Shown piece by piece: positions 22,974 to 40,965 of a DNA stretch of 64,000 nt. A program made the position numbers and the translations under genes. The notes under the pieces were generated by a model that was given only the letters and a program-made list of their open reading frames with translations, was not told the DNA's origin and made no database searches. Origin of the DNA: Lachnospiraceae bacterium AC2029 (GTDB taxonomy: Bacteria; Bacillota; Clostridia; Lachnospirales; Lachnospiraceae); the NCBI GenBank assembly GCA_000703065.1, contig JNLK01000001.1, forward strand, positions 2,998,001 to 3,062,000, in the 5' to 3' direction. Every line of letters begins with the position of its first letter. The first letter of the stretch is position 1.

Positions 22974-23441
22974 ATGAAGAAGAACAAAGGTTTCTCACTT
23001 GTAGAGCTCATTATCGTTATCGCGATTATGGCTATCCTTGCAGCAGCTATCGCTCCTGCACTGATCCGTTACATCGACAAGTCTCGTAAGGCAGACGACA
23101 TCGCTGCTGCTGAGACTGTAAACACAGCTGTTCAGACATCTCTGTCCAACGAAGACGCTTACGATGAGATCATGGCTCATATGGATGGTTCTATCCTTCT
23201 TAGCGCTGGTCAGGAGACACCGTTCCCGGATGGAACATATCCGAACTTTGCTAAGGAAGTTAACTCCAACATGGGTGGTAAGACACCGAAGCTGAAGTAT
23301 AAGAAGCAGCTTGAGACCGCTTCTTTCATCCCTGGTGGTTGGGCAGTTGCATGCTCCAATGGTAAGCCGATCGTTTACATCACCGATGGTGGTTCCAGTA
23401 AGGTTGAGGTTCAGCCGTCGATCGCTCCGGATTACAAGTAA
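22974..23441 (+). CDS. pilA: major type IV pilin (prepilin)
   Basis: A 155-residue prepilin with a six-residue basic leader MKKNKG and the class III signal G/FSLVELIIVIAIMAILAAAI, cut before Phe, with Glu5 present. The remaining 105 residues are the globular head, with no obvious disulphide pair (single Cys in AVACSNGKP). Its codon use is much stronger (GGT, CGT, GCT, CTT) than that of its neighbours, consistent with very high expression. It lies directly after pilC, with structured RNA on both sides. AAGGAG at 22958-22963 sets the start; a longer upstream frame starting at 22851 is not used. It is the most likely major subunit of the filament. Confidence 0.92.
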   Translation: MKKNKGFSLVELIIVIAIMAILAAAIAPALIRYIDKSRKADDIAAAETVNTAVQTSLSNEDAYDEIMAHMDGSILLSAGQETPFPDGTYPNFAKEVNSNMGGKTPKLKYKKQLETASFIPGGWAVACSNGKPIVYITDGGSSKVEVQPSIAPDYK

Positions 23442-23480
23442 GATTGTAAGAAAAAGGAAAGGACTGTAACAGGTCTTAGT

Positions 23481-23514
23481 ATCCGGTGCCTGTCTCGCTC
23501 GCAGGCATCCGGAT
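23481..23514 (+). terminator. strong hairpin after pilA, partial terminator or processing site
   Basis: ATCCGGTGCCTG (23481-23492) pairs with CAGGCATCCGGAT (23502-23514) with one bulged T. It is followed by A-rich sequence and only later by a T-run (23531-23536), so termination is probably incomplete. This would give abundant pilA mRNA with limited read-through into pilM-N. Confidence 0.6.
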
Positions 23515-23586
23515 AAAAAAGAGCTTCAGTTTTTTCGCGGTCAGCAACTTTTGGTGTGGCTGGCGGCTGCGTAACATTTTATTTGT

Positions 23587-23672
23587 ATCGGATGAAGGTC
23601 CGATTATAACAGAACATAGTTTTTAGTATCGGGGCAAATCCGATCGATGGGTGGCAGCTGATAAGCTGTACC
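23587..23672 (+). promoter_or_regulatory. three-hairpin leader before the pilMN gene
   Basis: ATCGGA/TCCGAT (23587-23604), ATCGG/CCGAT (23628-23644) and GGT-CAGCT/AGCTG-ACC with a GATA loop (23650-23672) follow each other in the 275-base gap between pilA and pilMN. The first two are similar in sequence. No known riboswitch consensus was recognised. Confidence 0.35.
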
Positions 23673-23716
23673 TTTAAAAGAAGTATGAAAAACTGATTAG
23701 CGAGGGAGGCTATAGG

Positions 23717-25393
23717 ATGGCAAAAGCACAAAGAGTCTTATCAATAGACATCACGAACGAAAGTATCACCGTTGTGGAGATTACTGCTTCGGCAAAAAAG
23801 CAGACCTATATCCACAAGGTACTCATCTTCGAGACTCCGGAAGATTCCTATGAAGACGGAACGATCCGGGATCCGGAGAGGATCGCAGCAGCGATCCGCA
23901 GCCAGCTTCAGCAGGCTGGTATCACAAACAAGGTTGCAGTCTTCGTTATGAATTCTACGAAGATCATCAACAGAGAAGTTGTAATCCCGTATGTAAAAGA
24001 GAATAAAATCGGAAGTATCATCAATGCAAATGCATCTGATTATTTCCCGGTAAGCATAGAGGATTACGTTGTATCGAATTCCCTTCTGGAGACGACCACA
24101 GACGAGGCCGGTGTAAAGCAGATGCGTGTTATGGCAGTTGCAGCACCGGAGGCTATGGTTCGTTCCTACTATGATCTGGGTGCAGCTTGCGGCCTGAAGG
24201 TTCAGGATCTGGACTTCATCGGTAACAGTATGCTGCAGCTCATCAAGACACAGACCACAGAGCAGTCGACCACAATGGTAATCCAGCTCGGCAGCGAGTC
24301 CACCGTTCTGAACGTTGTTCAGGGTGATAAACTCCTGCTTCAGAGAAACGTACCTTACGGTACAAACCCGGTAGTGAATGTGGTTATGGAAGAGCGAGGA
24401 GTGGATGCTACCACAGCTATGACACTTCTTCAGAATGACCGTATCATCACCGTTGATTTCGATGATAATGAGGCAACCGGTGCATTCCGGTATCTCATCA
24501 ATAACATCGGTCGTGTCATGGACTATTATGCTTCACAGCATCCGGACAATCCGATCGATGATGTATTCCTGACCGGTGACGGTGCCCTGATCCGCGGCAT
24601 CGACGGACTGTTCAAGATTCAGCTGAACGTTTCCACCCGTATCATGGATACACTTTATAATGTAAAATTTGATCCTTCCATTGATCAGAAGATCTACAGC
24701 CCGGTTTACCTGATCTCTCCGATCGGAGCGGCAATTAATCCGATGGGCTTTGAGCTCGGCGCAAAGGGTGGCGGAGGATCCAAGGAGAAGGCCCAGATCG
24801 GCTACGCTCCGTTCATCATCTTCACCGTACTCTGTGCGATCGCTGCAGCAGCTCTTTCCTTCTATATGCTGAATGAGAAGAGCAAGATGCAGGACAAGAA
24901 GAGTTCCCTTGAAGCTCAGATTGCCGAGAAGGAATATATCGAGAAGATCATCGCAGAGCATGACAAGATGAAAACCATCGCTCAGAATGCTCAGGAGATG
25001 ACAGCATCCACCTATGAGCTGAACGAGCAGGCGCTTGCATTCATCAACGAGTTTGAAGGAAAGATGCCGAAGTCCGTATACCTTGACAACTTCGTTTCTT
25101 CCAGTACAGCAGTCAATATGGCGGTTCTGGCAACCAGCTATGACGATGTTGCTCAGCTGATCGTAAACCTGAAGTCCATTTCAGTTATCACCGACGTATA
25201 TGTAGCTTCTGTTCAGACGCAGAGAGCAGCAGACGGTGATACAGATACAGGAAAGGATGTTTTCCGGTTCTCATTGACCTGTGTATACACTGATCCGCAT
25301 GCCGCTGAGAAAGCAGCAGCAGAAGAGGCGGCGGCAGCAGAGCAGGCAGCAGACCAGGCGGCAACAGAAGAAGCTACTACAGAAGCGGAGTAA
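23717..25393 (+). CDS. pilMN: fused PilM-PilN pilus assembly protein
   Basis: A 558-residue protein. Residues 1 to about 350 are an actin-like PilM domain (VLSIDITNESITVVEI, VFVMNSTKIINREVVIPYV, TMVIQLGSESTVLNVV, DDVFLTGDGALIRGIDGLF). A single membrane helix lies near 365-388 (APFIIFTVLCAIAAAALSFY). Then come a coiled coil (about 390-440) and a PilN-like periplasm-equivalent domain (PKSVYLDNFVSSS). The tail is Ala/Glu-rich. PilM normally binds the cytoplasmic tip of PilN; here they are one chain, as I recall for some clostridial pilus loci. PilO follows after 18 bases. Confidence 0.85.
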   Translation: MAKAQRVLSIDITNESITVVEITASAKKQTYIHKVLIFETPEDSYEDGTIRDPERIAAAIRSQLQQAGITNKVAVFVMNSTKIINREVVIPYVKENKIGSIINANASDYFPVSIEDYVVSNSLLETTTDEAGVKQMRVMAVAAPEAMVRSYYDLGAACGLKVQDLDFIGNSMLQLIKTQTTEQSTTMVIQLGSESTVLNVVQGDKLLLQRNVPYGTNPVVNVVMEERGVDATTAMTLLQNDRIITVDFDDNEATGAFRYLINNIGRVMDYYASQHPDNPIDDVFLTGDGALIRGIDGLFKIQLNVSTRIMDTLYNVKFDPSIDQKIYSPVYLISPIGAAINPMGFELGAKGGGGSKEKAQIGYAPFIIFTVLCAIAAAALSFYMLNEKSKMQDKKSSLEAQIAEKEYIEKIIAEHDKMKTIAQNAQEMTASTYELNEQALAFINEFEGKMPKSVYLDNFVSSSTAVNMAVLATSYDDVAQLIVNLKSISVITDVYVASVQTQRAADGDTDTGKDVFRFSLTCVYTDPHAAEKAAAEEAAAAEQAADQAATEEATTEAE

Positions 25394-25411
25394 TAGGGGG
25401 AGGATAAGAAT

Positions 25412-26536
25412 ATGAATGATACATCAAAAAAGGCATTGATTTGCTTACTCGGTATAGCGATTATCTTCCTGGCCTATATGTATGTTTTTTCTCCGGCCAA
25501 GGAGGATAAGGATAAGTTAGAGAAGGAGTGTAATGAACTCCAGGTACGTTTGGATGACCTGATCGCCAAGGAAGCGATGAAGGATCAGCTCCTTGCAGAA
25601 ACAGAGGAGTATAAGCAACAGTTCCAGGATGTCCTGAAGGATTATCCGGCTGATCTGAACCAGGAAACTGCAGTTATGTTCTTCAAGTCCATCGAGGAGA
25701 ACAATGAGTTTATCAACCAGTCCTTCAGCATGCCGAAGGAAAATGAAATCTATCGACTGAATGGAACAGACAGTGCAGGCGTTTCAGCTGATGCTCTTAC
25801 AGGCGATCAGGTTGAGAAGGATGCTTACATCTGCTACTCAACAACATATTCCATCGCATATCGTGGTGCATATCAGGGTATCAAGGATATGCTGGCGTAT
25901 ATCGCAGATTACAAGTATCGCATGAACGTATCCTCCATCTCCATCTCTTATGATCAGGAGAAGGATCAGTATTCCGGAACAACTCTGATCAATGCATATT
26001 CGATCAGCGGTCCGGATCGTACACCGGATACAGTTGACCCGGGTGTTCCGGCAGGTACATCCAACCTGTTCATCGCAGGCGACGGTTCTTCCTCTGCAGC
26101 TGCAGCTTCCAAGTATGATGCAGATCAGGGCGATGCGATCAAGACAAGCAACAACGTAGCAGTTCTTCTTAATTCTGCAAATAGCGATCTGTCTGCTGGC
26201 ATCATTGCAGCAGCAAATGCAAACCGTGACGACACCTATGTAACATCCAGTGACAATTCCAGAGTTCAGCTTACATTTAACGTTTACGAGGATGGCGGTA
26301 AGAATTACGTTGAGTATTCCATCGGAACACAGAAGTATGCAGCAGAGGTGCTTACATCTGATGTAACCATTTATGTGAAGTCCTCCGCACGTGTTGATTC
26401 CAGTGACGCAAACGGCGTAGACGTTTCCGTACAGAATACTACAGCACTTCCGGTATACTTCAAGGTTGTTGACGATGATGCTACAAATCCAAGATTCAAG
26501 CTTGTAAGCAAGTCCGGTACATGCAGAGTATATTAA
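25412..26536 (+). CDS. pilO: PilO-like pilus alignment protein
   Basis: A 374-residue protein with a short cytoplasmic start, one membrane helix at about 8-28 (ALICLLGIAIIFLAYMYVF), a coiled coil at about 33-70 and an extracytoplasmic domain. The layout and position after PilN match PilO, which forms the alignment subcomplex with PilN. At sequence level the match is weak beyond the N-terminal third. It is about 170 residues longer than standard PilO. The extra C-terminal part (about 210-374) is rich in Ser, Ala and Asp and contains VQLTFNVYEDGGKNYVEY. Gram-positive cells have no outer-membrane secretin to align, so the role may differ. Confidence 0.72.
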   Translation: MNDTSKKALICLLGIAIIFLAYMYVFSPAKEDKDKLEKECNELQVRLDDLIAKEAMKDQLLAETEEYKQQFQDVLKDYPADLNQETAVMFFKSIEENNEFINQSFSMPKENEIYRLNGTDSAGVSADALTGDQVEKDAYICYSTTYSIAYRGAYQGIKDMLAYIADYKYRMNVSSISISYDQEKDQYSGTTLINAYSISGPDRTPDTVDPGVPAGTSNLFIAGDGSSSAAAASKYDADQGDAIKTSNNVAVLLNSANSDLSAGIIAAANANRDDTYVTSSDNSRVQLTFNVYEDGGKNYVEYSIGTQKYAAEVLTSDVTIYVKSSARVDSSDANGVDVSVQNTTALPVYFKVVDDDATNPRFKLVSKSGTCRVY

Positions 26537-26593: not shown

Positions 26594-28477
26594 ATGGTCC
26601 GAAAGAAAAATCAAGGTTTTAGTTTGATAGAGGTGATTGTAGCCGTCGCCATATTGACGATACTTATGGCACCGATCATCAAGCAGGTTATTCAGACTCT
26701 GCAAACCAGCGCTCAGGCAAAAGAGCGTCAGTACGCTGTGGAGAATGCTGAGTACATTTTGAACACACTGCAGGAAACTCCGGTTTCTAAACTGAACACT
26801 TTAGCAGGCAAGCTGGGGGCAACCCCGGCTGCCGATGCTGAAGGAAAAGTTCTTACCGAGAGTATCGACGGCGGTGATCTGAAGTTCACCAGCTGCGTTA
26901 CAAATCCCTCCGTAAACTGCTTTATCTGGCAGTGCGGAGATTATGCTTCACTTGACTCATATCTTAGCAGGACACCTGTTGCACAGACTGATATTTCTTC
27001 AGCATTATCGTTTGGCTATGGTGTTCCTTACTCTGCAACGACCTATACTCTTGAGAAGACCGCCCTTGGAAGAGGAGATAAGTTCTATCAGAGAAAGGTT
27101 ACTGTAGATAACCTTCGTGCGGTTGTAGCAGCAAATGACAGCACGATTGAAACCTACTTCTCAGAAGAAGCGATTGCTGCACTTAAGGATAACGGTTTCA
27201 CCATCACAACAGAGGGTGCAGCCGTAAAGTATGACGCAACTACCGGACTGGTATCGGATATCGTGGTTTCCAAGGTTTCCGGTATCCGCAGCCCGAACGG
27301 AACCGGTACCAGCTACATGCAGGATCTTGACAGCAGTAAGGTTGCCATCATCCAGGGTTCGGCTTCCAACTTTGACGCTCAGGCAGAAAATGATCTTTAC
27401 AATCTGAAGATGAACCGTTTGAAGGCTTCTCGTCCCGATGACTGGGTACAGGCAATGCTTTCTCACAACGGAAGCGTATTGGAGACAAAATACTTCTTTG
27501 ACAATGTAAGTAAAATGACGAGGATCTCCATTGTATCAGGATATGATACAGAGAAGGATCTGAAATATTACGATGTTGACTGTACTGTATTCTATGAGGA
27601 TTACCTGATCAAGGCATCCGATGAGGATCCGGTGAATGCAGGTGAAAATCCGTATGACGATGCAGCGGATGTATTTGATGATATGGACATCGACCAGAAT
27701 AAACCCGAGACCCTGACCTACAATGCGTATACACACAGGTTCTATACGAATCAGGCTCCGGATATCTATCTGGTTTATGAGCCCTATGTTGCAAGTGAAT
27801 CAAATTATGCTACAAGGGACTATATAGTGACCTACGACGGCGTGCTCTATGATGCCAAGGAGAAGCATTCCAAGCTTTATGTGATCAAGCCCAGCAAGGG
27901 ACGTGTCGTAAGATACAAAGCCCTGGCTTCGGAGCCGGCAGACTGGTCAGCAAATTATGAAAGTTATTTTGAAAAGAGTGGTACTGATTACGTACCGGTT
28001 ACGGGTACAGAGGCACCTGCATTCGAGGAGAATAAATACTATCAGCGTGCTCATGACTTTACTACAAACTTAACGACAAAAGCCGACACCTCGGTAGATG
28101 TCTATCTGAACTATCTGAAGAAGAACACAGGTGAGACAAATGTTCTCCCGATCTACACAAATGTTGATCTGGCAAACTTCAAATGTGCACTTCCGGCGGG
28201 TGCAAAGGACGGATGTCAGTATTCTGAGAATCGGAGTCTGTACTACGGAGTTCCGAAATCCGTTGAGGACGGGCCGGTCAATAAGACGAATAAGTATTCT
28301 GCCGATGAAATGACGAGAACTGCATATGATTCGGCAATCGTTAAGGATATCCATGAGGATGTCACCTTGTCGGATCGAGTATATACAGTTACGGTTCAGT
28401 TGGATAAGCTGAATGAGGACGGATCGGTTTATTCCGGTTATTCCGTTAAACTGTCAGGTGCAAAGGGGGCTGAGTAA
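26594..28477 (+). CDS. large PilV/GspI-like minor prepilin
   Basis: A 627-residue prepilin: leader MVRKKNQG, then FSLIEVIVAVAILTILMAPI with Glu5. The SLIEVIVA segment is typical of the GspI/PilV group. Ordinary minor pilins are about 130-180 residues, so the soluble part of about 590 residues is greatly enlarged. It contains several Tyr/Asp-rich segments such as YDDAADVFDDMDIDQN. Start ATG 26594 is chosen because GGAG at 26582-26585 fits it. The upstream GTG 26585 overlaps the ribosome binding site. It begins a run of four minor pilin genes ending in a giant exported protein. The enlarged head might contribute to a tip adhesin complex. Confidence 0.8.
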   Translation: MVRKKNQGFSLIEVIVAVAILTILMAPIIKQVIQTLQTSAQAKERQYAVENAEYILNTLQETPVSKLNTLAGKLGATPAADAEGKVLTESIDGGDLKFTSCVTNPSVNCFIWQCGDYASLDSYLSRTPVAQTDISSALSFGYGVPYSATTYTLEKTALGRGDKFYQRKVTVDNLRAVVAANDSTIETYFSEEAIAALKDNGFTITTEGAAVKYDATTGLVSDIVVSKVSGIRSPNGTGTSYMQDLDSSKVAIIQGSASNFDAQAENDLYNLKMNRLKASRPDDWVQAMLSHNGSVLETKYFFDNVSKMTRISIVSGYDTEKDLKYYDVDCTVFYEDYLIKASDEDPVNAGENPYDDAADVFDDMDIDQNKPETLTYNAYTHRFYTNQAPDIYLVYEPYVASESNYATRDYIVTYDGVLYDAKEKHSKLYVIKPSKGRVVRYKALASEPADWSANYESYFEKSGTDYVPVTGTEAPAFEENKYYQRAHDFTTNLTTKADTSVDVYLNYLKKNTGETNVLPIYTNVDLANFKCALPAGAKDGCQYSENRSLYYGVPKSVEDGPVNKTNKYSADEMTRTAYDSAIVKDIHEDVTLSDRVYTVTVQLDKLNEDGSVYSGYSVKLSGAKGAE

Positions 28478-31400
28478 GTGAAAAAGTTACGCGCGAAACT
28501 GAAAAACATACTGAAGAATCAGGGCTCAGGTCTGGTTCTGGTTGTTGTAGCCGTTGCGTTCATCGGTATTCTTGTCGGCTCCCTGCTTACGGCTGTTGGC
28601 TATGCATATCGACTGAAGCTCTATGACTACAACGCAAAGGATAACTTCTACTATCTGGAGCAGGCCATGGATGAGGTTTATGCCGGTGTCGGTAATGAAA
28701 CCCTGTCCTGCATGCAGACCGCATATACGGATGTGGTTAATGAGATGGTAGAGTATTCTGAGTCTACCCGGAATTACATCACCCGGGATCCGGAAGACCT
28801 GAATGCACAGTTCAAGAAGCAGTTCATGGCAAATGTGGCAAATTCTGAATTCATGAAGACTGCCGGCGGTGCGCTTGACAAGTTCCTTCAGAGCTTCATC
28901 ACCAACTCTGATGTAAAGCTCGTGACGGGAAATGCCAAGATCGTCAAGTATGTCATGGACGAGGGCGGAGTAGAGAAGGTCTATAACGGTGTTGCGAATG
29001 CAAATGTAGAGTATTCCACGATCGTTATCAAGAACGTTATCCTCAGCAGAACGGCTAATTACAATCGTTCTACTGCAAACGGAAATTTCACTCAGACGAT
29101 CTCCACCGATATCGTGGTAAATCAGCCTGATTTCGAGATGAACTTCACCTCGATCATCATGGATTACTCCACTCTGTATGATTATTGCATGCTCGCTGAC
29201 AGCGGTATCGAGATCACACAGAACAAGTCAGAGCTCAGCATCAGCGGTAACGTATATGCTGCAGCTGACTTCTACAACAAGGGATACAACAATTACAAAG
29301 GTACTGCGGCAAGACAGGCAGCAAACGGTGGTTTCTATTATGATTTAAACGGTGTCGGCAGGGGTAGCGCGCACGGAGTGGTTTATGGCAAGTCCGGAAA
29401 CACTGTTACGCCGACTGAGACCAGTTATGTATCTTCTCAGGAGATCCCTTCCACGATCTCTACTGATACTCGTGTTTACAACAACTTTAATAACGGAAAG
29501 GTTTCAAACAACACTTCCCAGAGTCTGAGAAATGACCGTATTTATTACGGCACCAATTTTACGGTAGCGAATTATGATGGTGTTCAGGAGAACAGTATGT
29601 ACTCCGGGCTTTACATCAAGGGTGCGAATGTAAATATGCAGTCTTCCGAACTGATTGTTCCGGGAACCATCGCTGTTATGGATGGTGCAAGACTTACTCT
29701 GTACGGAAAGACCGGTGCCAGTGTTTCAGAGGCCGATGTATGGACAGATAATATCGCACTTGGCGGTATCGGAAACAAGGATTCTGCTCCGTATGCACTT
29801 CTTCGTGCAAACCTGCATGTAAGAGACGACCTGGAACTTAACGCGAACTATTCCTACTTCCAGGTTGCAGGACGTTACTACGGCTTTGGAGACAGCACAA
29901 AGGCAGATGCCCGTGAGTATGTTCCGACCGTAACCGGTGACGCTGCAAATGCTTATTTCTATAAGGAAATGGTGAACGGTGTAGCTACACCGAAGGCCCG
30001 TGGCCACTATAACAGTTCTGCGATCGTGATCAACGGTCAGCAGTCCAAGCTGGAGCTTTCCGAACTGGATGCGCTCTTTGTAGGCGGACGTTCCTACGTA
30101 CAGCTTTCCAAGGATTATGGCAATGTGGTAAGAAAGAGAGCAGTCTCAACCGATACGGAGAAATTCGATCCTGATAATCCGGAATTCATTATTGATGAGG
30201 TTGATGAAAACGGTAAACAGGTTACTGAGAAATCTTACGTATTCGATGGGAATACGGATGACTTTAAGACCGGTGAGAGTATCTCGATCAAGACAAACCA
30301 ACTGGCATACGTGCCGATGAATATCACCGGTGTATCCACTGTAAATATCGTTGAAGAAACACTTACTGACGGAACAAAATACTACAAGGTTCCGCTTCCG
30401 AGTGAAGTACAGAGCTCTGTTCCGTTCCTTCAGATCCTGAGCGGCGGTGCAGGTACCGAGAACAATGTAATGACCTATGTTCCCTGTATCAAGTATGATA
30501 CTACCGACGGAACCGAGTATTACTATGATTTTGAGACCTGCTACAAGCTGTTCTATCAGAGCAAGGGTAAGAACAAAGCTACATTCAATTACCCGTATAA
30601 ATCATCAGCAACTGCCACACCTCAGATGGTAAGCGTTGATGTTGATATCAAGTCGGCAGAAGATCTTGCAAAGCAGTTCATTATCTTCTATTATACAGAG
30701 CTTTCCAATTACGATTCCTCCAGCTGCAAAGCAGTTCTGCCGGATATCGGAGACAAGTATGAAGGCTTCAATTTCGACGAGGGTTATCTGGAGATTCCGA
30801 CACAGGAGAACAATATTTACTCCTCCGGCGCGATCACCGCAAAGGACGGTACGGAATTCACCATTAAGGGTGCCGAAAACCTGCAGGAATCCATCGAGAG
30901 TTCTGCAAGAGAAGAGAAGTCCGAGTATAGTAAGATGCTTACTACTAGTGTAACACAGGCTGCAACTGTTGCCAGTGATATGGAGGAACGTTACGCATAT
31001 CTCAAGTGGACTTTGGAGAATTATAATCCGAATCTTGCACGAAGCGTAGCTGAAAGGGCCTATGTTAGCACAACGGTTGAGAGTTATGGTGAGCAGTATC
31101 TGACTCCGTTGAACCGTTACCTCAATTTCAATCAGATCACTCCGACAACGGATATCCATCCGGCCATGACAGGTTACAGGAGTGGTACCAGTCTGGAACT
31201 TGCTTCCGGATACAAGGTATGGATCAGCAGCAATGATGTAGTTGTAAGCTCTGACAGAGAAGACGGCGTCGTTCAGGGTATTGTAGTCGCAAAGGGTAAT
31301 GTGTTCTTTGATAAAACAGTCACCAAGTTTGAAGGACTGATCGTATCCGGTGATAAGATCTTTGTTGATAATACCACCACATTCCCTACCGGACGCGGAA

Positions 31401-31705
31401 GAACAGCTGCCGGTGACAGTACGATCACATCCATCAGCGCCAGCCCTGAGATTGTACGTGCAATCCTCAATGAGTGCATGACGATGACAGGTGACACATC
31501 TGATAACGGAACCTATGCAAAGAAGGTTCTCGCAGTCTTCAAGTCCTATGAGAAGTATGCATATGCTACTTCCGAGGTTAAGACCATCGATGTAAGCCTG
31601 AAGACCATTGATACGATCCAGTACTCCGACGTAGTACGGTACTCCAACTGGATGAAGAACGTTGTTGCAGAGCCGAAGACAGAGCCTGCGACTGACGAAC
31701 CGTAA
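28478..31705 (+). CDS. giant PilX/GspK-like pseudopilin
   Basis: A 1075-residue protein starting at GTG 28478, directly after the stop of the preceding gene. Its N-terminal NQGSGLVLVVVAVAFIGILV is a prepilin-like helix after a basic leader. It has G-S at the cut site and no Glu at position 5, as in the GspK/PilX_N type (QRGSALLVxLL), whose members sit at the pseudopilus tip. The rest is extracellular, with beta-rich stretches and NNTSQSLRN/YVQLSKDYGN-like low-similarity regions. Standard GspK is about 330 residues, so this one is three times larger. Gene order supports a tip role. Function is inferred. Confidence 0.7.
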   Translation: MKKLRAKLKNILKNQGSGLVLVVVAVAFIGILVGSLLTAVGYAYRLKLYDYNAKDNFYYLEQAMDEVYAGVGNETLSCMQTAYTDVVNEMVEYSESTRNYITRDPEDLNAQFKKQFMANVANSEFMKTAGGALDKFLQSFITNSDVKLVTGNAKIVKYVMDEGGVEKVYNGVANANVEYSTIVIKNVILSRTANYNRSTANGNFTQTISTDIVVNQPDFEMNFTSIIMDYSTLYDYCMLADSGIEITQNKSELSISGNVYAAADFYNKGYNNYKGTAARQAANGGFYYDLNGVGRGSAHGVVYGKSGNTVTPTETSYVSSQEIPSTISTDTRVYNNFNNGKVSNNTSQSLRNDRIYYGTNFTVANYDGVQENSMYSGLYIKGANVNMQSSELIVPGTIAVMDGARLTLYGKTGASVSEADVWTDNIALGGIGNKDSAPYALLRANLHVRDDLELNANYSYFQVAGRYYGFGDSTKADAREYVPTVTGDAANAYFYKEMVNGVATPKARGHYNSSAIVINGQQSKLELSELDALFVGGRSYVQLSKDYGNVVRKRAVSTDTEKFDPDNPEFIIDEVDENGKQVTEKSYVFDGNTDDFKTGESISIKTNQLAYVPMNITGVSTVNIVEETLTDGTKYYKVPLPSEVQSSVPFLQILSGGAGTENNVMTYVPCIKYDTTDGTEYYYDFETCYKLFYQSKGKNKATFNYPYKSSATATPQMVSVDVDIKSAEDLAKQFIIFYYTELSNYDSSSCKAVLPDIGDKYEGFNFDEGYLEIPTQENNIYSSGAITAKDGTEFTIKGAENLQESIESSAREEKSEYSKMLTTSVTQAATVASDMEERYAYLKWTLENYNPNLARSVAERAYVSTTVESYGEQYLTPLNRYLNFNQITPTTDIHPAMTGYRSGTSLELASGYKVWISSNDVVVSSDREDGVVQGIVVAKGNVFFDKTVTKFEGLIVSGDKIFVDNTTTFPTGRGRTAAGDSTITSISASPEIVRAILNECMTMTGDTSDNGTYAKKVLAVFKSYEKYAYATSEVKTIDVSLKTIDTIQYSDVVRYSNWMKNVVAEPKTEPATDEP

Positions 31706-31716
31706 AGGAGGAGCAT

Positions 31717-32334
31717 ATGGCTAAGCATAAGAAGAATCAGGGTTATTCCCTGGTAGAGCTGATCGTGGTTATTGCGATCATTGCGGTCGTAGCCGGTCTG
31801 TCACTGATCTCTGTCACACTGATCCATTCAGCGAAGGCTAAGAACGCTTCAACTACGGTAGATTCTGAGATCTCCACGCTGATCACGAAGTCCAAGAATA
31901 TGAGTTCGGATCGTGCCGGATGGCAGTATGCAGCGCGTATCTATTCAGATGAGAAGGGTGCATACTACTTCCAGAAGGGTTATTATGATCCCTCATCCAA
32001 GACTTATGACTTTAAGGATACGGATACGGAGGGTGAAGGAAAGGGAATCGCTCTTTCATCCTATGTAGTGATCAAATACACCGGAACCTGTCCGAATGTG
32101 GCTTTCAGTAATTCAACAATGACAGGAACTGAGGATATCAATCTTACGGTTAATGATCATGAGTTGAAGAACCTCTGTACTGCAAACGGAAATCCGGGTG
32201 GCGGACTCTTTATCCGTTTTGCAAAGGACGGAACCTGTGAGTCGGGTGTAGGTGATATCCGGTTCTATAAGAGAAACGGTAATATCGTGGCACATGAGTA
32301 TATCCGTGCAAATGGTAGTCATCAGTCCAGGTAA
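31717..32334 (+). CDS. FimU/GspH-like minor prepilin
   Basis: A 205-residue prepilin with leader MAKHKKNQG followed by YSLVELIVVIAIIAVVAGLS, with Glu5 and cleavage before Tyr. The helix continues into LIHSAKAKNASTTVDSEIST, the alpha1 spine of the FimT/GspH class. The globular head has two Cys (CPNVAFS, CTANGNPGGG) and a third in GTCESGVG. AAAGGAGG overlaps the end of the preceding gene, 11 bases before the ATG. In the minor pilin complexes of other systems this class connects the tip to the filament. Confidence 0.82.
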   Translation: MAKHKKNQGYSLVELIVVIAIIAVVAGLSLISVTLIHSAKAKNASTTVDSEISTLITKSKNMSSDRAGWQYAARIYSDEKGAYYFQKGYYDPSSKTYDFKDTDTEGEGKGIALSSYVVIKYTGTCPNVAFSNSTMTGTEDINLTVNDHELKNLCTANGNPGGGLFIRFAKDGTCESGVGDIRFYKRNGNIVAHEYIRANGSHQSR

Positions 32335-32348
32335 AGGGGGGATTTATT

Positions 32349-33206
32349 GTGAATAGAAGACAAGTAAATAACCGAGGCGTAACCCTGGTTGAGCTGATGG
32401 TCGCCCTTGCAGTCCTGGCTATGCTGATGACTGCAGTGATCATGCTGATGAGCAACAACACGGTAATTTATAAGAAGACAAAAGCAGACATTTCCATTCA
32501 GACGTCTGCACAGGAAACCTACGGAGCAATTCAGGACAGTATCATGCAGGCCAAGTCGATAGAGCTTAAGGCTTATACAGATACGGATGCAACAGTTAAG
32601 ACCTACAAGAAGGCCTCTTCCATAGCTCCTGGAGATGCATCATCCGGTTTTGATACACTGATGAGTGTAAATGCCGTAGGAGCAGCAAGTTATACCACGG
32701 TTTATCCGGTACAGCTGACGATCGTATATTCTGTTGAGAACAGTGACGACATCAACAACAAGAACTGTACGGTAAACTATTACTTCCACAGATATTCCGA
32801 TCCGGAGAGCGGACATGCCAAGTGTAATCTTTATGTGACACGTACGTATGAAACCAGCGTTGACAGGATGGATGACGTTTGGCCTGAATCCTATAACAGC
32901 GGCTGGACGCCTGCCAAGCAGACGGAGTCATCGAAAGAGGATCGGGATAAGTTCACTGAGTGGCTGTATACTTCAGCCATGTCGGAAGCAAAGTTCCATG
33001 TGGATTATACAACTCAGTCCTTTGACGTGATCCTGGATTTCTGGGACAGAGGACAGAAGTATAATACTAGCGGCCTTGTAAGCTGCCGTAACTCTTACAT
33101 TATGAAGGATATGAGAAACCGTACAGCGGCTGCTGTATCCATAACGGAGACAGAAGGCGAAGGCGGTGAAGGCGGCGAAGGTGCCGAAGGTGCCGGCGGA
33201 GAGTAA
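32349..33206 (+). CDS. PilW/GspJ-like minor prepilin
   Basis: A 285-residue prepilin starting at GTG 32349 (AAAGGGGG upstream). Leader MNRRQVNNRG, then VTLVELMVALAVLAMLMTAV with Glu5. The TLVELMVA pattern and the following long helix match the GspJ/PilW class. The C-terminus is a Gly/Glu repeat (GEGGEGGEGAEGAGGE). It completes a set of four minor pilins that can be equated with GspI, K, H and J. The next gene, 18 bases on, encodes the giant exported protein. Confidence 0.82.
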   Translation: MNRRQVNNRGVTLVELMVALAVLAMLMTAVIMLMSNNTVIYKKTKADISIQTSAQETYGAIQDSIMQAKSIELKAYTDTDATVKTYKKASSIAPGDASSGFDTLMSVNAVGAASYTTVYPVQLTIVYSVENSDDINNKNCTVNYYFHRYSDPESGHAKCNLYVTRTYETSVDRMDDVWPESYNSGWTPAKQTESSKEDRDKFTEWLYTSAMSEAKFHVDYTTQSFDVILDFWDRGQKYNTSGLVSCRNSYIMKDMRNRTAAAVSITETEGEGGEGGEGAEGAGGE

Positions 33207-33224
33207 CAGGAAAGGAATGTGATT

Positions 33225-36200
33225 ATGAAGACAAGAAACGCAAAAACTTTGGTGATATCGCTTGCGCTTATGCTTGTGATGTGCGTTGCTGCCACATTAC
33301 TTTCATTCTCGCTTGCTGATGACACCCCGGGGGCGGATGATACCGGAAGTGGAAGCAGTTTCAATACCACAAAGACAAATATTGACTATATCATTGAGAA
33401 TTCGGCTTCCTCTGAGAAGGACGAAACCGGTCGTGATCTGAGTCCCTTCTACATAGTGGAAATCGGTTCGGCCGCAAACGATAATAATTCTCCCCTGAAG
33501 GCAATGGTAGTGGAGGATCTTACAAGCGACGCTTCTACAGATGATATCAGCCATTTTGTAAAACAGGTGATCAATGGTTGGTCGACTGAGAACAAAACCA
33601 TGACACCGAATAAGATTTCCTATCAGTATATCCCGGTAGGAACTCTTTCATCAGAAGAAAATCTTAATGCGGCTATATCTGCTGTCAGCAAGGCAGATCT
33701 GATCTATGTCAGCAATGATCCTGACAGTCAGTACTCTGCTTCGAAGGATATCCCCGAGGACCTGAAGATGATCCTTTCGGGTGCAGCTACATCGAATTAC
33801 ACCCCGTTCATTATTGACAGTCCGACCAAGACCAGCGGCGGTGGCGGCGGAGGTGGAAGTTCTTCCACCATCACGACTCTGGCTCAGAAGATCTTCGCCA
33901 AGTCAGGTGTTTACAGAGCGGTTTATTCCTATGATGTTTCGGCATCTACCGATGCTACAAAGTTCCTGAACCGTCTGGATAAGAAGTCCAAGTGGCTGCC
34001 GATCTCCGGTGATAATTATGCCGATAACTGGATTGAAGACGTAGATGGCAAGAAGTCAGCTCGTATCCTTACGATCCAGAGAGATGATTCAGATAACGCA
34101 GTTACTGCAAAGCTTGTAACAACGCTTGGTACTACCACCTACGATATGGCTAAGATCGTAGAGAAGGATCCGACCTTTGATCCGACCGGTAAGGAAGCAT
34201 ATCAGATCACGGGAACCGCTTTTGAAGAGTTCGGCTATCGTTCCACACAGGCAGTTCCGGATAATGTGATCCTTGAAAAGCTGAAGGCTGCAGATCTTAC
34301 AGCAGATCTGGATCTCAGCGTATATGACATGATCATCGTGGAAGCAGGTACATCCTCACAGGTGATCTCAGCTGACGTTATGAACATGATGTCAGGTCTG
34401 GTCTTCGGAATGCAGACCATCGTATATGACAACTCGCTGAAGTCCGGAAGCGGAGAAGGTGAGGAGCAGGGAGATATCATTACTTCACCTGCGTTGAACT
34501 ATCAGTATGTTGTTAATAAGGTTGCGGATGCAAATGAGATCGCTCGTTTTTCCAATGTCCTTGTGACAGGTATGGCTGAGATGAGGATTTACGGCGCTGC
34601 TTCTGCACCCTCCGGTGTAAAGCCCATCGCAGATATCATCAACAATGGTTCTTATCGTAATTCAGGTGGTGGCGGAAGCTCTTCAAATCTGTATACGGTT
34701 CTTGAGGTTCAGCCGTGCTACCCGATCGATCTTGATCTTGCAAAAGCATTACAGTCCAGAGGTATGAGATCTTTGGCGGATAAACCGAGAAGGTCTCAGC
34801 CTGATAATGGAACTGATAACAGAGATATTTTCTATTATGTCAAGACAGATGGTGTTTTGAATGATACAACATCTGACGAGATCAGTTATGACGGCGGTCT
34901 CACATCGCTGTCTGATATGGAATCGACAGATGATGCAACAACAGGTATCAGTTCAAGAGGTGCCGTTCAGCATGCAAATCTGATCACAACGGATACGGTT
35001 GTTGATTATTATGCATGGGAGCTTTCTAAGGCGAAGGTTGCTTATCTGACAGGTTTACCTTACAACAAGGTAAATGTAGTCCATATGTCTTCGGTAGAGT
35101 TTAACACAAGTCGTGAAACCTTGCTGGACAACTATGATGCAATCTATATTGGCGGAAAGAATACAGCAATAAAGGATGTTGAGTACATCCTGAAACAGGG
35201 CAGAGAAGGTAATGCTGCCGTATACAATATGTATTTCCATAACGGCGGTACATATTCCATCGATGGCAAGTATGGTGTTCTGACCGGAAACGATATTACT
35301 TATAACAAGTTTGTTGAACTTCAGAAGTATATTGCTGCCGGTATGCCGGTTATATTTACAAAGGCTGTAACGGAAGCATACTTTGAAGCAAAGATTAATG
35401 GTTATAATACTACAAAGATGGATCCGGAGTCTAACGTGTTCAAACTGATGGATCATGTTATGAATGCGACCACTACAGGTACAGACGACAGAACCGGACA
35501 GTTGAACTATCCGACCAAGTTTACCAATGTTCTTGCAGGATTTGATCCGACAGATCAGGTCAAGGTTCAGAATGATGGTAGTTATGGTTTGACCTATAGC
35601 GGTTATGTGACAATTTTTGGCGGCATTGAGACACAGGTCTACGTTAAGGGTGCGGATGAAGTGAATGTTCCGACGGTGGTAACTCCGTCAACAGCAGCTG
35701 TTAACGCTGAGGAATTTACTTATCTTCTCGCAAATTCCAATGAGCGGCCGAAGTTCTCCCTGCTTCAGGGACCGGCGTTGTACGTCGAAGGAGATGCTTC
35801 TACTGAGATCACAACCAATCAGATTTCATTCAAGTTTGATGTGGCTAGTAAGGCTTCTTATACTGTTAAGGTATACGTAGATAACAATACCAACAGCCGT
35901 TTCGAGGATGATGAGGTCATTTACGGACCGAAGAAGGATCCGAGTGGTAAGATCACAGCAAGTATCGCCAGTTCTTTCGATGGTGCACTTTATTGGAAGT
36001 TTGAGATCACTTCGGGAGATTGTAAGAGCTCGGTAGTCGGACTCTCTAAGGTTAAGGTTAAAGCGCCTAATTATGTCAGCGTTCTTCAGATCACTCCGGA
36101 TATTGCTGCAAAGCCTTCGGATAACAGCAAGACCATGTTATTGTTCTGTACCGAGTGTCAGCAGGCAAAGGGTATCCTGAAGGGTAACCGTTACAACGAT

Positions 36201-38858
36201 ACCGGTAAGTACTCAACTGAAGTACAGACCACAGGACGATTTAATGATCAGAACGGAAGTTCATATAATCCGGGAGGAACCGTACCTGATCCGTCTGCAA
36301 AGGATCCGGGATACACAAATGGATCGAAGAACTGGGCTCTTGGAACCCATACGCATAACTTTGGTATTGTAAAGTATGATGGTACGCACAAGGTTGGTAA
36401 TGTTACAGGTTCTGATGACTGGACAACAAATTGGTGCTATGACCTTTTGAATGATTACACTATGGATATTGATCTCTGGACGACAAGTCAGTTTGATGAC
36501 AATATCAATGATGCCATGACAAAGGTTACAGCAGCAAACTATACTACAGTCATTGAGGATTACAAGACTCTGGCATCCATTTACAAGACATACTATATGA
36601 CCATGAGGTCAATTATTGACGGAACAGTAGACACATCAAATCCGAATTATACATACTTGAAGAATAAGCTGACGAAGACCAACAATACATTTGTTGAGGC
36701 GGATGTCAATACGTTCTTTGGTGAAGATTATTCCGTATATAATTTGGAGAGCGCTAAGGGCGGCTTCGGAATATCTGAGGCTGAGTTTGATTCCTACAGA
36801 GTTGCCCAGAAGAACATCGATGCATATCTTACAGCTATTTCTGAAATGAGAAATAAGCCTAGAATTGGCAATACTTCAGAACAGGATCTGCTGGACGAGA
36901 TCAGATATGAGAAGACCTATCACAGATATAGTGATTTCTATTCACTCTCAAATGCACATTCTGATACTTCTGAAGCTGTAAGCTACGTTAAGGCGACTGC
37001 AACAGGCACAGGGACAACGCAGGCAACTGTAAATGCTAATAGAAATGTTTACACTGAGTTTAATACTCTGTTTGTTCCCTGGAGAAATGCAAAGATCTTT
37101 GAGCAGTATTTCTACAAGATGTATATGAAGTATCTTCTGTATGCATCTGTTAAGGAGTATGATGGTAAGTATGTTCCGGATCTGACAGAGGTGTTCAGTT
37201 GTATCGTAATCGGTGTTGCAGAGAATTTCGGTAACGATGATATCGATTCACAGAATGCAATTGACACACTGAAGGCGTATATCGAAAACGATGGTAACAC
37301 CTTCATATTCCATCAGACTATCAATGACTCAGGTAACACTAAGAATCTGACAAATAATCTGAGAACATTGTTTGGTCAGAATTACAATCATATTTCCACA
37401 AAGACCGTTACGGAGACAGCACTTACCTATGAGGTAAAGACGGCAAACACTTGGGAAAAAGATAGTGCGGCCACTCTTTGCGAGGGTACTTTGGAAGAAG
37501 GCCAGGGCTTAGATATCAATCTCGTAGAAACCGCTAATGGTGAGATTGTTCCGGAAGAGGCAACTGCAACGGCAAATGCCACCGGAAATATCAATATCAG
37601 GTGGACAATAAACGGGAACGGAAATTGGTCAAACAAGAGAGTATGGATCTATATCAACGGATCTGATACTGAAAAATATACCTTCATTTGCGGTGATCAT
37701 TCTGCATCAACAGGTGTTTTAAATAATGTTGCAAGGATCACGGAAAGAGCGGTTACTACTACAAGAGTGGTCAATGAATATCCGACGGATACCAACAGAT
37801 ATCATTACACCGCTATGATGAAGAATGGTAAGTCACTGACCGTGACACCATATCATCGTACAATGACCCAGACTGCTCAGGTTAGAGGAAATCACGGAGC
37901 TGATGGTAGATACATGTACACCCAGACCGGCCTGTTACAGACTGATGTAGAGGTTCCGGAAGAGCACGTAGCCGAGAATTCGGATGATTTCATTACGAAG
38001 ACCTTTACTACGGCTGCTACACAGACCAACGAGGGCGTTGTTACATTGTATCCGTTCCTGATCGGATCCAGACTGAAGATTTCAGGTACTCACCCGAATT
38101 GCTTCTCGACGGATATTGAGAATGATGATGTCGTTGTATATTACGCAATGGCAGGTGGAGAACAGGGTACTCAGTCCAGTGTCTGCGCGGCAGATCCTCA
38201 GGATGGTATCGATAATTACTTCCTGTACTCCTATGGTAATGTTACTTACTGCGGTGCCGGACATTCACTTATTACCGGATTCCATCGTGATAACAACGAT
38301 GAGAGACGTCTCTTCATCAACGTTATTCTGAATTCAGCAAAGAAGTCAGTATTCGGACCTACCATCGATGTATACGATCCGTATCCGGAGAAGAATCCTG
38401 ATGGTACAGTCAAGACAGATGAAGAAGGAAATCCGATCTACACCAACAATGATATTACCAAGGCAGAGGATGGTTCCTATGAGATGGTAGTACCGTCAAC
38501 CGATTCCGTACCGGAGTTCACCTACAAGGTAACGATCCCGGATATCGCGGATGAGGTATCACATGTAATGATCTACTATGATCTGTCATCGAATACTTCC
38601 GACGGTGAGTATGGATTTGTATCCGGTACGGATGTGAAGATCTTCGAGTCTGATGCCAAGACTGATGATTCCATCCTGAAGAACAAGTACAAGCTGATCA
38701 GTGAAGCTATCGATGCATTAAAACTGAAGCCTGAATACTTCAGACCATACGATAACAAGTATACCTACATTGTAATCGCGGTTAAGACGAAGAAGGGTAC
38801 AGTAGCTATGCAGCGTATCATGGTTAAGATCGCACCGAAGCTTTGGGATATGACCTAA
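33225..38858 (+). CDS. giant exported protein at the end of the minor-pilin operon, candidate pilus-tip protein
   Basis: A 1877-residue protein with a signal peptide (residues 1-31, LVISLALMLVMCVAATLLSF, cut near SLA) and no C-terminal anchor or sortase motif. Three segments begin alike: FYIVEIGSA (about 75), LYTVLEVQPCYP (about 488) and YVSVLQITPD (about 951). Each is followed later by a hydrophobic strand with an acidic or glycine turn: ADLIYVSNDPDS, YDAIYIGGKNT and FSCIVIGVAENFG; a fourth is YDMIIVEAGTSS. Glycine linkers occur near 204 and 482. I recall similar proteins labelled DUF5057. Position mirrors PilY1. Start ATG 33225 follows AAAGGA; GTG 33219 is less likely. Confidence 0.75.
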   Translation: MKTRNAKTLVISLALMLVMCVAATLLSFSLADDTPGADDTGSGSSFNTTKTNIDYIIENSASSEKDETGRDLSPFYIVEIGSAANDNNSPLKAMVVEDLTSDASTDDISHFVKQVINGWSTENKTMTPNKISYQYIPVGTLSSEENLNAAISAVSKADLIYVSNDPDSQYSASKDIPEDLKMILSGAATSNYTPFIIDSPTKTSGGGGGGGSSSTITTLAQKIFAKSGVYRAVYSYDVSASTDATKFLNRLDKKSKWLPISGDNYADNWIEDVDGKKSARILTIQRDDSDNAVTAKLVTTLGTTTYDMAKIVEKDPTFDPTGKEAYQITGTAFEEFGYRSTQAVPDNVILEKLKAADLTADLDLSVYDMIIVEAGTSSQVISADVMNMMSGLVFGMQTIVYDNSLKSGSGEGEEQGDIITSPALNYQYVVNKVADANEIARFSNVLVTGMAEMRIYGAASAPSGVKPIADIINNGSYRNSGGGGSSSNLYTVLEVQPCYPIDLDLAKALQSRGMRSLADKPRRSQPDNGTDNRDIFYYVKTDGVLNDTTSDEISYDGGLTSLSDMESTDDATTGISSRGAVQHANLITTDTVVDYYAWELSKAKVAYLTGLPYNKVNVVHMSSVEFNTSRETLLDNYDAIYIGGKNTAIKDVEYILKQGREGNAAVYNMYFHNGGTYSIDGKYGVLTGNDITYNKFVELQKYIAAGMPVIFTKAVTEAYFEAKINGYNTTKMDPESNVFKLMDHVMNATTTGTDDRTGQLNYPTKFTNVLAGFDPTDQVKVQNDGSYGLTYSGYVTIFGGIETQVYVKGADEVNVPTVVTPSTAAVNAEEFTYLLANSNERPKFSLLQGPALYVEGDASTEITTNQISFKFDVASKASYTVKVYVDNNTNSRFEDDEVIYGPKKDPSGKITASIASSFDGALYWKFEITSGDCKSSVVGLSKVKVKAPNYVSVLQITPDIAAKPSDNSKTMLLFCTECQQAKGILKGNRYNDTGKYSTEVQTTGRFNDQNGSSYNPGGTVPDPSAKDPGYTNGSKNWALGTHTHNFGIVKYDGTHKVGNVTGSDDWTTNWCYDLLNDYTMDIDLWTTSQFDDNINDAMTKVTAANYTTVIEDYKTLASIYKTYYMTMRSIIDGTVDTSNPNYTYLKNKLTKTNNTFVEADVNTFFGEDYSVYNLESAKGGFGISEAEFDSYRVAQKNIDAYLTAISEMRNKPRIGNTSEQDLLDEIRYEKTYHRYSDFYSLSNAHSDTSEAVSYVKATATGTGTTQATVNANRNVYTEFNTLFVPWRNAKIFEQYFYKMYMKYLLYASVKEYDGKYVPDLTEVFSCIVIGVAENFGNDDIDSQNAIDTLKAYIENDGNTFIFHQTINDSGNTKNLTNNLRTLFGQNYNHISTKTVTETALTYEVKTANTWEKDSAATLCEGTLEEGQGLDINLVETANGEIVPEEATATANATGNINIRWTINGNGNWSNKRVWIYINGSDTEKYTFICGDHSASTGVLNNVARITERAVTTTRVVNEYPTDTNRYHYTAMMKNGKSLTVTPYHRTMTQTAQVRGNHGADGRYMYTQTGLLQTDVEVPEEHVAENSDDFITKTFTTAATQTNEGVVTLYPFLIGSRLKISGTHPNCFSTDIENDDVVVYYAMAGGEQGTQSSVCAADPQDGIDNYFLYSYGNVTYCGAGHSLITGFHRDNNDERRLFINVILNSAKKSVFGPTIDVYDPYPEKNPDGTVKTDEEGNPIYTNNDITKAEDGSYEMVVPSTDSVPEFTYKVTIPDIADEVSHVMIYYDLSSNTSDGEYGFVSGTDVKIFESDAKTDDSILKNKYKLISEAIDALKLKPEYFRPYDNKYTYIVIAVKTKKGTVAMQRIMVKIAPKLWDMT

Positions 38859-38884
38859 GCTGTTGGTACAAAAGCAACTTAATG

Positions 38885-38915
38885 GGAGCCATGCCGGAAG
38901 GCATGGCTCCTTTCT
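38885..38915 (+). terminator. rho-independent terminator of the pilus operon
   Basis: GGAGCCATGCC (38885-38895) pairs perfectly with GGCATGGCTCC (38900-38910) around a GGAA loop and is followed by TTTCTT. It lies 26 bases after the stop of the giant exported protein. Confidence 0.9.
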
Positions 38916-39281: not shown

Positions 39282-40739
39282 TTATACGGTTGTTGCATTC
39301 TGCATATTAAGAATGGTCTGTTGACCCAGGAGAATCATGAGCTGCCATTTGCCAGGCATATTTCCACCGTTTCTGATCATTTCATCTTCGACTGGAGGGC
39401 GGAAACGATGGTGTTGGTGAGGTCGTAGAAAGTTATAATAAGCCACCCAGAGCGCAAGGTCGTAGTTCGCTCCGTCGTAGTTATCAAATCCGTTTGTTGG
39501 ACGATAGGACGCCTTGTATGTACGGTTCAGCCGTTCAATCATCTGTTTGTAAGGCCGAAAAGCCTTTGAGACTGCGTCATCGTTGGTGAGGCCGATTACC
39601 TGAGTGATTTCAAACTTGAAATTATCGCCAAACTGACGGAAAAACTGCTGAGCCGCAAGAGGATATGCACTGTAACCATCAGCGATAAACCGGAACTTTT
39701 CAGGTAACTCTTTCATGTGTTGGAAAGCCATACGCATAGCCATGATACATGGACCGACACCACGGTTGTCGGATACCTGATATCCGATGATTGCGCGGGA
39801 TGCGGCGTTGATGATAAACCAGATATACCCTTTGATACCACGAACCTTGATATATGTTTCGTCAGCTGCAAATACAGAGTTCTTCTCGTAAGGGTAGGTA
39901 TCAACGAAGGGTTTAATGCAGATGGCCGCGGTTTTACAATAGTTTGCCACCATCTGATGTGATATGGAGATATCGTACAAATCCTTAAGAGCCTGCGAAG
40001 TCTTACGGAGGGAAAGTCCAAGATTCACATGCATAGTAAGGCAGAGAGACATGATGTAGGCGTTGTGTTTGCTGAACTTTAGGGAGGACGCATTCTTCGG
40101 AAGAGATGTGATGTCCATTTTAAAGAAATCTATCGTGAACTCACGGTAGATATAGTGGAGTTTGTATTTAGCTTTTCCGTGTTCTTTCTCCAGGTCCTCT
40201 TTATCAACTTTTTTGAGATTGTGGAGATAGTAAGGGCATTGGGGGTTGATACACTTGTGGATGACGAAGTGTTTCCGATCCTTCTTATGTTCCAAGGTAT
40301 GAGAGCAGTGTGGACATTTCAGAGTCAGAACTTTTGAAAAGCGATTCTCATCCGGATGAAACAGAGTGCTGCAGACCTTACATAGCAACTGACCGCGCCT
40401 GCCGTTGTTACGGTAAAGAAAAGGATGAGGAGCCTTGCAACATGGGCAGGTGCAATCTTCAGGAATGTCACACTCGGATCGATGGCGTACAGGTTTAATG
40501 GGCTTCCCATATTTCCAGGTATAGTAACGGTTTAGATCCTGCCAATTCCAATCCTGGCTGTGGTACACAATCTTTGGGAGCTGATCAACTTTGTACTTTT
40601 GATATTTGGGTGAATGCGAGTCATCGAAAGACCATTGTTTCAATGGGATGTAATGGCAGATGAAATTAATCAGCCAACAATTTTGTTGATATAAAAACTG
40701 TATAATTTCGCAAAGATACTGTATAATAACCATGAGCAT
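39282..40739 (-). CDS. DDE transposase, IS6/IS240-like with N-terminal zinc ribbons
   Basis: About 485 residues. The N-terminal half carries two cysteine clusters (CTCPCCKA...CKVC and CPHC...CINPQCPYY), likely zinc ribbons for DNA binding. The catalytic part has VFAADETYIKVRG (first Asp), FIADGYSAY (second Asp) and QMIERLNRTYK (Glu), with GYIWFIINAASRAIIGY between them, as in the DDE_Tnp_IS240 group. All three acidic residues are present, so it may be active. Classical IS6 transposases are about 230 residues; this one is double. AAGGAG at 40748-40743 precedes ATG 40739 by three bases and ATG 40733 by nine, so either start is possible. A -10 (TATAAT) lies at 40781-40776. Confidence 0.87.
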   Translation of the reverse strand: MLMVIIQYLCEIIQFLYQQNCWLINFICHYIPLKQWSFDDSHSPKYQKYKVDQLPKIVYHSQDWNWQDLNRYYTWKYGKPIKPVRHRSECDIPEDCTCPCCKAPHPFLYRNNGRRGQLLCKVCSTLFHPDENRFSKVLTLKCPHCSHTLEHKKDRKHFVIHKCINPQCPYYLHNLKKVDKEDLEKEHGKAKYKLHYIYREFTIDFFKMDITSLPKNASSLKFSKHNAYIMSLCLTMHVNLGLSLRKTSQALKDLYDISISHQMVANYCKTAAICIKPFVDTYPYEKNSVFAADETYIKVRGIKGYIWFIINAASRAIIGYQVSDNRGVGPCIMAMRMAFQHMKELPEKFRFIADGYSAYPLAAQQFFRQFGDNFKFEITQVIGLTNDDAVSKAFRPYKQMIERLNRTYKASYRPTNGFDNYDGANYDLALWVAYYNFLRPHQHHRFRPPVEDEMIRNGGNMPGKWQLMILLGQQTILNMQNATTV

Positions 40740-40965
40740 TGTCTCCTTCTGTATGGTTGATGTTTGGTCGCGGATATTATACACGAAAAAGGGGGTCAAT
40801 GCTCATTTTTTATTTGAACCCCGTAAAATAAAGGAATTGTAACAAATTTGAAGTGTCAAATTTGACACTACCCATATGGTAAGAGAGGGGATTATATGAT
40901 ATGATGAAAATGTCCCGAATAAAAGGTATGATTCCGAGGGATCGTCCTTTTACCCATCAAACGCC

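Follow-up and report, generated by a model that had tools for sequence, protein, structure and literature searches.

In Pseudomonas, Neisseria and Myxococcus, the large exported non-pilin protein PilY1/PilC is encoded with the core minor pilins FimU-PilVWX, as is the giant protein described here. Monoderms have no outer membrane and no secretin. In review excerpts, monoderm type IV pili (T4P) are described as lacking the components of the outer-membrane stage, PilC/PilY1 is presented as a diderm tip effector, and modular pilins are looked to for adhesion by monoderm T4P (PMC6916266, PMC10191384). An excerpt of a 2026 paper ascribes to PilY1 a role in priming, and reports that strand complementation between PilX and PilY1 was predicted in all four complexes modelled, one of them from Neisseria (PMC13190605). 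In M. xanthus, modelling has the last eight residues of PilY1.3 (LQNVYELP) join the PilX3 sheet as an extra strand, and the tail of PilY1.1 is given as SKVLIYAP (PMC11046646). An Aeromonas PilY1 ends in KKIYLYEGEAQ.

Two further systems bear on the locus. Streptococcus sanguinis PilABC also belong to Gram-positive T4P, and excerpts describe their adhesive modules as modelled at the tip (PMC10628169, PMC8179133); in that system a pilin itself carries the adhesive module, whereas here it would be a separate non-pilin protein. In competence pili, ComGG, ComGE, ComGF and ComGD are equated with PilX, PilV, PilW and FimT, and the cap is defined by its missing Glu5 (PMC12040237, excerpt). With GspHIJK and ComGDEFG the present locus has in common the I- and H-type subunits, weaker J-type matches and a member without Glu5. 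Unlike the situation here, GspHIJK of the type II secretion system (T2SS) is described, in a review excerpt, without a PilC/PilY1 partner (PMC10191384), and minor pilin 2 here has 1075 residues.

We analyzed a 64,000-nucleotide stretch (the window) of Lachnospiraceae bacterium AC2029, a Gram-positive that apparently lives in gut or rumen and whose 3.86 Mb genome is a single contig. An ORF check of the window found five ORFs at 26594-38858, all on the + strand. Upstream and on the same strand lie pilB, pilT, pilC, pilA and pilMN, found by a Pfam scan, and a gene at the place expected for pilO (18638-26536), which makes 26594-38858 the last part of a T4P gene cluster. The pilB-type extension ATPase (18638-20359) matched T2SSE (E 9e-136) and MshEN (E 9e-19), the pilT-type retraction ATPase (20439-21494) matched T2SSE (E 2e-49), and the platform protein pilC (21621-22823) matched T2SSF (E 7e-65). 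A PilT-type protein from the set also matched a gene annotated as PilT in L134. In the longest ORF of the major-pilin candidate pilA (22851-23441; N_methyl, E 1e-9), the prepilin motif occupies residues 42-67, hence the true start lies further in. A pilM-pilN fusion (23717-25393) matched PilM_2 (E 7e-27) and PilN (E 2e-9), and the gene at 25412-26536 is labelled pilO from its place alone, the PilO profile being unmatched. PilB, PilT, PilC, PilM/N and PilA thus occur together, as in a type IVa pilus cluster of a monoderm. Prepilin peptidase is encoded outside the cluster (two peptidase A24 matches elsewhere in the genome), and a second, small pilB locus has no giant within the 20 kb examined there.

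The unit of ∼20 kb looks like one predicted operon with the giant as its last gene, 26594-38858 being the 3′ end of the predicted order pilB-pilT-pilC-pilA-pilMN-pilO-four minor pilins-giant. A promoter-like site upstream of pilB (TTCCCA-17-TATAAT with TG before the second hexamer; 18571-18599, + strand) is a consensus match only, and the region holds 40 such matches vs. 29.8 expected from shuffles. Between pilA and pilMN there is a weak stem resembling a terminator (23554-23572). An intrinsic terminator with a 12-bp stem and 8 GC pairs (38884-38911, + strand) follows 25 bases past the stop codon of the giant gene. Just past this terminator, a DDE/rve-type transposase gene lies on the opposite strand (39282-40799).

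The original prediction had placed four adjacent prepilin-like genes here, spaced by 0-18 bases and followed by an exported protein of 1877 residues, and this description is borne out. Minor pilin 1 has the frame 26585/26594-28477 (630 aa counted from GTG) and the giant has the frame 33219/33225-38858 (1879/1877 aa). The ATGs at 26594 and 33225 were preferred over the longest frames on ribosome-binding spacing, by inspection, and with these starts the intergenic gaps among the five genes are 0, 11, 14 and 18 bases. Genes 1, 3 and 4 matched the prepilin motif of Pfam (N_methyl, E 6e-9 to 9e-8) and carry Glu5 by inspection, as three subunits of a core minor-pilin set do. Minor pilin 2 (28478-31705) gave no Pfam match. 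Its start, NQ followed by GSGLVLVVVAVAFIG, is a prepilin-like N-terminus without Glu5; this N-terminus (GSGLVLVVVAVAF) makes it the one subunit of the set without Glu5, as in a cap. A Glu5-type motif was found in none of 56 homologues of minor pilin 2.

The same prediction had equated the four genes with GspI/PilV, GspK/PilX, GspH/FimU and GspJ/PilW, which agrees with Gram-positive as well as T2SS/T4P subunit profiles, the matches of the window proteins themselves being consistent but below the curated cut-offs. Each minor pilin was aligned with 25 relatives, one per locus, and all members were scanned against NCBIfam; L035 was left out, as an extra gene shifts its order. Minor pilin 1 (26594-28477), of PilV/GspI/ComGE type, matched ComGE in 26/26, PilV in 23/26 and GspI in 15/26 members. 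Minor pilin 3 (31717-32334; 205 aa), of FimU/GspH/ComGD type, matched GspH in 23/26, ComGE in 17/26 and ComGD in 13/26. Minor pilin 4 (32349-33206; 285 aa) is assigned to the PilW/GspJ/ComGF type less firmly because its matches are mixed (ComGE in 20/26, ComGF in 19/26, GspI in 12/26 and GspJ in 4/26). For minor pilin 2 there were almost no matches apart from GspK in one of 26 members (E 0.05), and comparison with solved structures gave weak N-terminal pilin matches only (best E 0.11). N-terminus and place mark it as a putative PilX/GspK/ComGG-type cap lacking Glu5. One of its 26 aligned members (alignment A5) matched the cellulose-binding tapirin model of NCBIfam (E 1.4e-4); a literature search linking tapirin and T4P found nothing. 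In L042 (6420-9113, − strand), minor pilin 4 has a C-terminal F5/8 type C domain.

The last gene (33225-38858, + strand) encodes the giant exported protein that we propose as a non-pilin tip protein. It begins with a hydrophobic export segment (33225-33317, by inspection), and its main domain match is to Pfam DUF5057 (PF16480; 35289-36119, residues 691-967 of the 1879-aa ORF, profile positions 1-265; E 6.2e-12, 46.1 bits vs. a curated cut-off of 27.9). The match recurs in 25 of 26 aligned giants, the one of the window included (alignment A1). No domain other than DUF5057 was found in the giant of the window. A literature search found no paper naming DUF5057, and searches for PilY1 with Clostridia, Firmicutes, monoderms or Lachnospiraceae showed no such protein in the titles and abstract openings of the matches listed.

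As the original prediction had noted, there is no clear PilY1 propeller or vWA sequence. The propeller profile PF05567 gave no match up to E 1 in the giant of the window and none at E 0.01 among the 26 aligned giants, and a vWA domain, which part of the PilY1 family has at its N-terminus, was found in none of these proteins. PF05567 was likewise found in none of 398 genomes of the phylum, a count to be read with the silence of the built-in controls and with a positive control in which the model matched one of the five records tried, an Aeromonas. The identification of the giant as PilY1 itself was rejected, the PF05567 domain being missing. The layout therefore matches fimU-pilVWX-pilY1, a set of four core minor pilins encoded with a large protein as in the Gram-negative loci, but the last protein is not PilY1. 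The cautious part of that prediction, that an unrelated protein may stand in PilY1's place, gains support and survives the genomic linkage analysis below.

Attempts to assign a fold gave leads at most. AlphaFold2 models of both halves, from a four-sequence input, had mean pLDDT values of 36.5 and 47.4 and were unusable; Foldseek with these low-confidence halves returned nothing at E ≤ 1e-3, its best matches being a copper-binding protein (E 0.0086) and SoxYZ (E 0.022), with mostly beta-sandwich proteins among those listed. Sequence searches against solved structures gave the giant no credible match, the best being an implausible one to a T-cell receptor (E 0.024). One of five giants matched ThuA (E 0.042). 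A profile comparison of DUF5057 with ThuA/GATase-like proteins, for which six ThuA ORFs were recoverable from twelve chosen loci, gave a probability of 2% and E 0.026 vs. 0.4-0.9 for unrelated alignments. When ten segments of the giant were compared with each other by profile, three pairs exceeded 20%, one of them a trivial overlap; residues 590-740 scored 69% against 50-235 and 90% against 1300-1420, which is a lead towards possible repeated segments. Two giants of other loci have additions: L079 carries Flg_new repeats, and L082 has a ricin-lectin match (E 2e-4) below its cut-off.

A DUF5057 search was positive in 63 of 299 genomes from the host's family and negative in all 14 control genomes. 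Two giants are carried by at least four of these 63 genomes; in L076 (7771-17898), two giants of 1633 and 1661 residues lie in tandem with the near-identical tails MFNLR and MFGLR. A pattern scan for the giant named three loci, two from uncultured Lachnospiraceae and one from a goat-omasum Eubacterium bin, 58-64% identical. Scans of viral contigs and of a plasmid collection gave no relatives of the giant there. The surroundings of the listed DUF5057 places comprised 68 stretches with 69 large ORFs. L100-L102 were dropped as other proteins with partial profile matches (331-378 or 334-378), and L041, L052, L058, L060 and L074 as not assessable, their contigs beginning less than 2 kb upstream. 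Of the 61 assessable giants, 60 adjoin T4P genes: 59 lie behind prepilin genes, with at least two upstream and in 57 cases one directly before, and one is a remnant behind pilC. This remnant (L059, 11854-17813 after reverse-complementing) is a 652-residue C-terminal piece that follows directly on pilB-pilT-pilC; the stretch from pilA to minor pilin 4 is missing, through either decay of the locus or an assembly fault.

The remaining giant (L054, 12811-16758) lies away from pilus genes, and pilA, pilMN and pilO are on another contig of that genome. It sits between what we take to be a comM-like gene and a dprA/topA-like pair; what is presumably a topA-like gene is also close downstream of the L052 and L103 giants. 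In loci with both a pilO-position gene and a giant, four prepilin-type genes lie between them in 50/56 cases and three in 6/56. This conservation of gene order in relatives excludes a chance arrangement. In a scan of 398 genomes of the phylum, DUF5057 occurred in seven, three of which belong to the host's own family. All four giants outside the family stand beside T4P genes; one comes after pilB, pilC, pilA, pilM, pilO and a set of three minor-pilin genes, and the other three are oriented divergently to a pilB-pilT-pilC-pilA cluster. With 59 of 61 behind prepilin genes and four of four beside T4P genes outside the family, the giant is usually T4P-linked. The original prediction had proposed to look for such linkage; it holds in nearly all cases assessed, and homologues are not usually met without T4P genes.

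At the very C-terminus of the giants stands L-F-D-L-D, or a close variant of it, preceded by a strand-like segment; the giant of the window ends in L-W-D-M-T (38841-38855) against the family consensus L-F-D-L-D/N/T. Of 80 listed proteins, three of them cut, 69 have L and four have M at position −2. A pattern for the last five residues fits 69 of 76 intact proteins; of the 963 other products with 150 or more residues encoded in the same loci, it fits one. The pattern was drawn up after the sequences had been seen and the proteins are related, but the contrast is large regardless. The 76 comprise 63 from the family draw, the giant of the window, three from L002-L004, five short forms and four from outside the family, and giants cut at the C-terminus (L078, L089 and L092) are left out. 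The seven misses are L090, with extra residues after LFDLT, L048 (LMMLD), L103 (IKDLD), L129 (LPSLD) and L130-L132, three copies from another family with RY as their last residues.

In L129, minor pilin 4 and the giant are separated by a gene (6665-10366, − strand) for an exported protein that lacks DUF5057 and has an NPCBM carbohydrate-binding domain and SdrD_B/SpaA-like repeats. This protein and the giant next to it both end in VKLxSLD, as if they had a docking tail in common. Neither a sorting motif nor a C-terminal membrane segment was seen by inspection in the giant of the window, and the 69 large ORFs (66 giants, three cut) show no LPXTG-type motif and no near-C-terminal hydropathy window above 1.5. 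With no recognisable wall anchor, the giants need another anchor.

For comparison, 18 T4P clusters negative for DUF5057 were hand-picked among the matches listed, with PilM-type ORFs of 495-660 aa; judging from ORF sizes, PilM_2 also matches other actin-fold proteins there. In five of the 18, the place of the giant is taken by a protein of 802-1024 residues that looks exported and whose C-terminal end resembles that of the giants. Homology to the N-terminal part of giants was detected for three of these five (E 2e-31 to 2e-20) and not for the other two; in the L116 short protein, the C-terminal part of the DUF5057 profile matches weakly (E 0.005). All except the one in L103 fit the tail pattern. 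The tail could merely be part of a conserved last domain, and the short proteins that keep it without DUF5057 speak against this, the one in L116 less clearly in view of its weak match. Nine of the 18 clusters have no giant at all, so the giant is not needed for T4P as such; among the remaining clusters, one has a different protein of 1699 residues nearby and two are cut off. The last of the 18, L105 (3337-10764 after reverse-complementing), contains a 2475-residue ORF with a prepilin motif at its start, possibly a giant modular pilin.

Minor pilin 4 is long (at least 439 residues) in six of the eight giant-less clusters with an identifiable one, and has 615-1145 residues in 16 of 60 giant-bearing loci. 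This difference is a hint that either protein, minor pilin 4 or the giant, can take on the display function. Some relatives have an extended minor pilin 4 in place of the giant or alongside it, an arrangement nearer to that of S. sanguinis PilABC.

These data show that (i) the giant is last in the cluster, behind the core minor pilins; (ii) it has an export segment and no recognisable anchor; and (iii) its tail is conserved. From this we infer its export route, docking, tip position and part in adhesion. Encoded last among T4P genes in many relatives, the giant probably rides on the pilus tip. It would be exported via Sec and captured by the minor-pilin cap complex, and its C-terminal beta strand (L-F-D-L-D-COOH) would add to the cap pilin without Glu5 or to a neighbour of that pilin. 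The cap would then prime pilus assembly and bear the giant outward, where its lineage-variable body might meet a surface or ligand in adhesion, possibly by binding sugars. Docking by the tail is proposed because a cap pilin without Glu5 is here paired with a partner that has a conserved free C-terminal strand, in parallel to what is modelled for PilX-PilY1.

Like PilY1/PilC, as described in excerpts (PMC11046646, PMC13190605), the giant combines a variable body with a strand-like C-terminal end. Unlike PilY1/PilC, it has neither the PF05567 propeller nor a vWA domain, its body carries DUF5057, and its free C-terminus is conserved as L-F-D-L-D. The tails of M. xanthus PilY1.1 and Aeromonas PilY1 have only strand-like character in common with that of the giant, so that the parallel is one of principle.

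The place of the gene is also compatible with a giant that never enters the filament. It could be an adhesin, secreted or on the cell surface, whose gene shares a transcript with those of the pilus simply because both have to do with attachment. One operon can encode proteins that make no contact, the added domains in L079 and L082 are of the sort found on free surface proteins, and the L054 giant is away from pilus genes; we nevertheless regard this reading as unlikely, since neither a sorting motif nor a C-terminal membrane segment was detected, distant lineages keep the gene at the same spot after the minor pilins, and the tail is conserved in proteins without the central domain. The short forms bear on a role at the pilus base as well. 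Three of the five retain the N-terminal region of the giants, and PilY1 itself primes according to the excerpt cited above (PMC13190605), as might be expected if the giant were a priming scaffold or a wall-crossing helper that is not carried to the tip. Giant-less clusters keep their assembly genes, however, and a spread in length from 802 to 2392 aa among uncut forms is more in keeping with display than with a part of the machinery, which makes an assembly or envelope-passage factor quite improbable in our judgement.

The giant might also be the cargo of a T2SS-like secretion in which the minor-pilin cap pushes it through the wall and releases it; HIJK complexes contact secreted effectors in T2SS, in the words of a review excerpt (PMC10191384). 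The pilT-type and major-pilin genes in the cluster suggest retractile pili instead, and a fixed place in the cluster with mostly one giant per genome would be unusual for cargo, so we give this explanation very little credence. We consider it reasonably probable that the giant belongs to a Gram-positive T4P as a non-pilin subunit, tail-anchored to the minor-pilin cap and a functional analogue, but not a homologue, of PilY1.

A wider extension of the tip-subunit reading is more tentative, and we would sooner doubt than assert it. The free strand L-F-D-L-D may be a portable tip address for exported non-pilins in a Gram-positive T4P tip-display system, loading DUF5057 giants, short forms without DUF5057 and, with a variant tail, the NPCBM protein of L129 onto the pilin without Glu5. 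Such a system would be independent of PilY1 and would use the same principle of strand addition. A widespread non-pilin cap partner in what seem to be Lachnospiraceae would change the picture of monoderm T4P drawn in reviews, and DUF5057 would gain a function. It would also offer a five-residue handle on whether strand addition to the cap pilin generally loads tip proteins.
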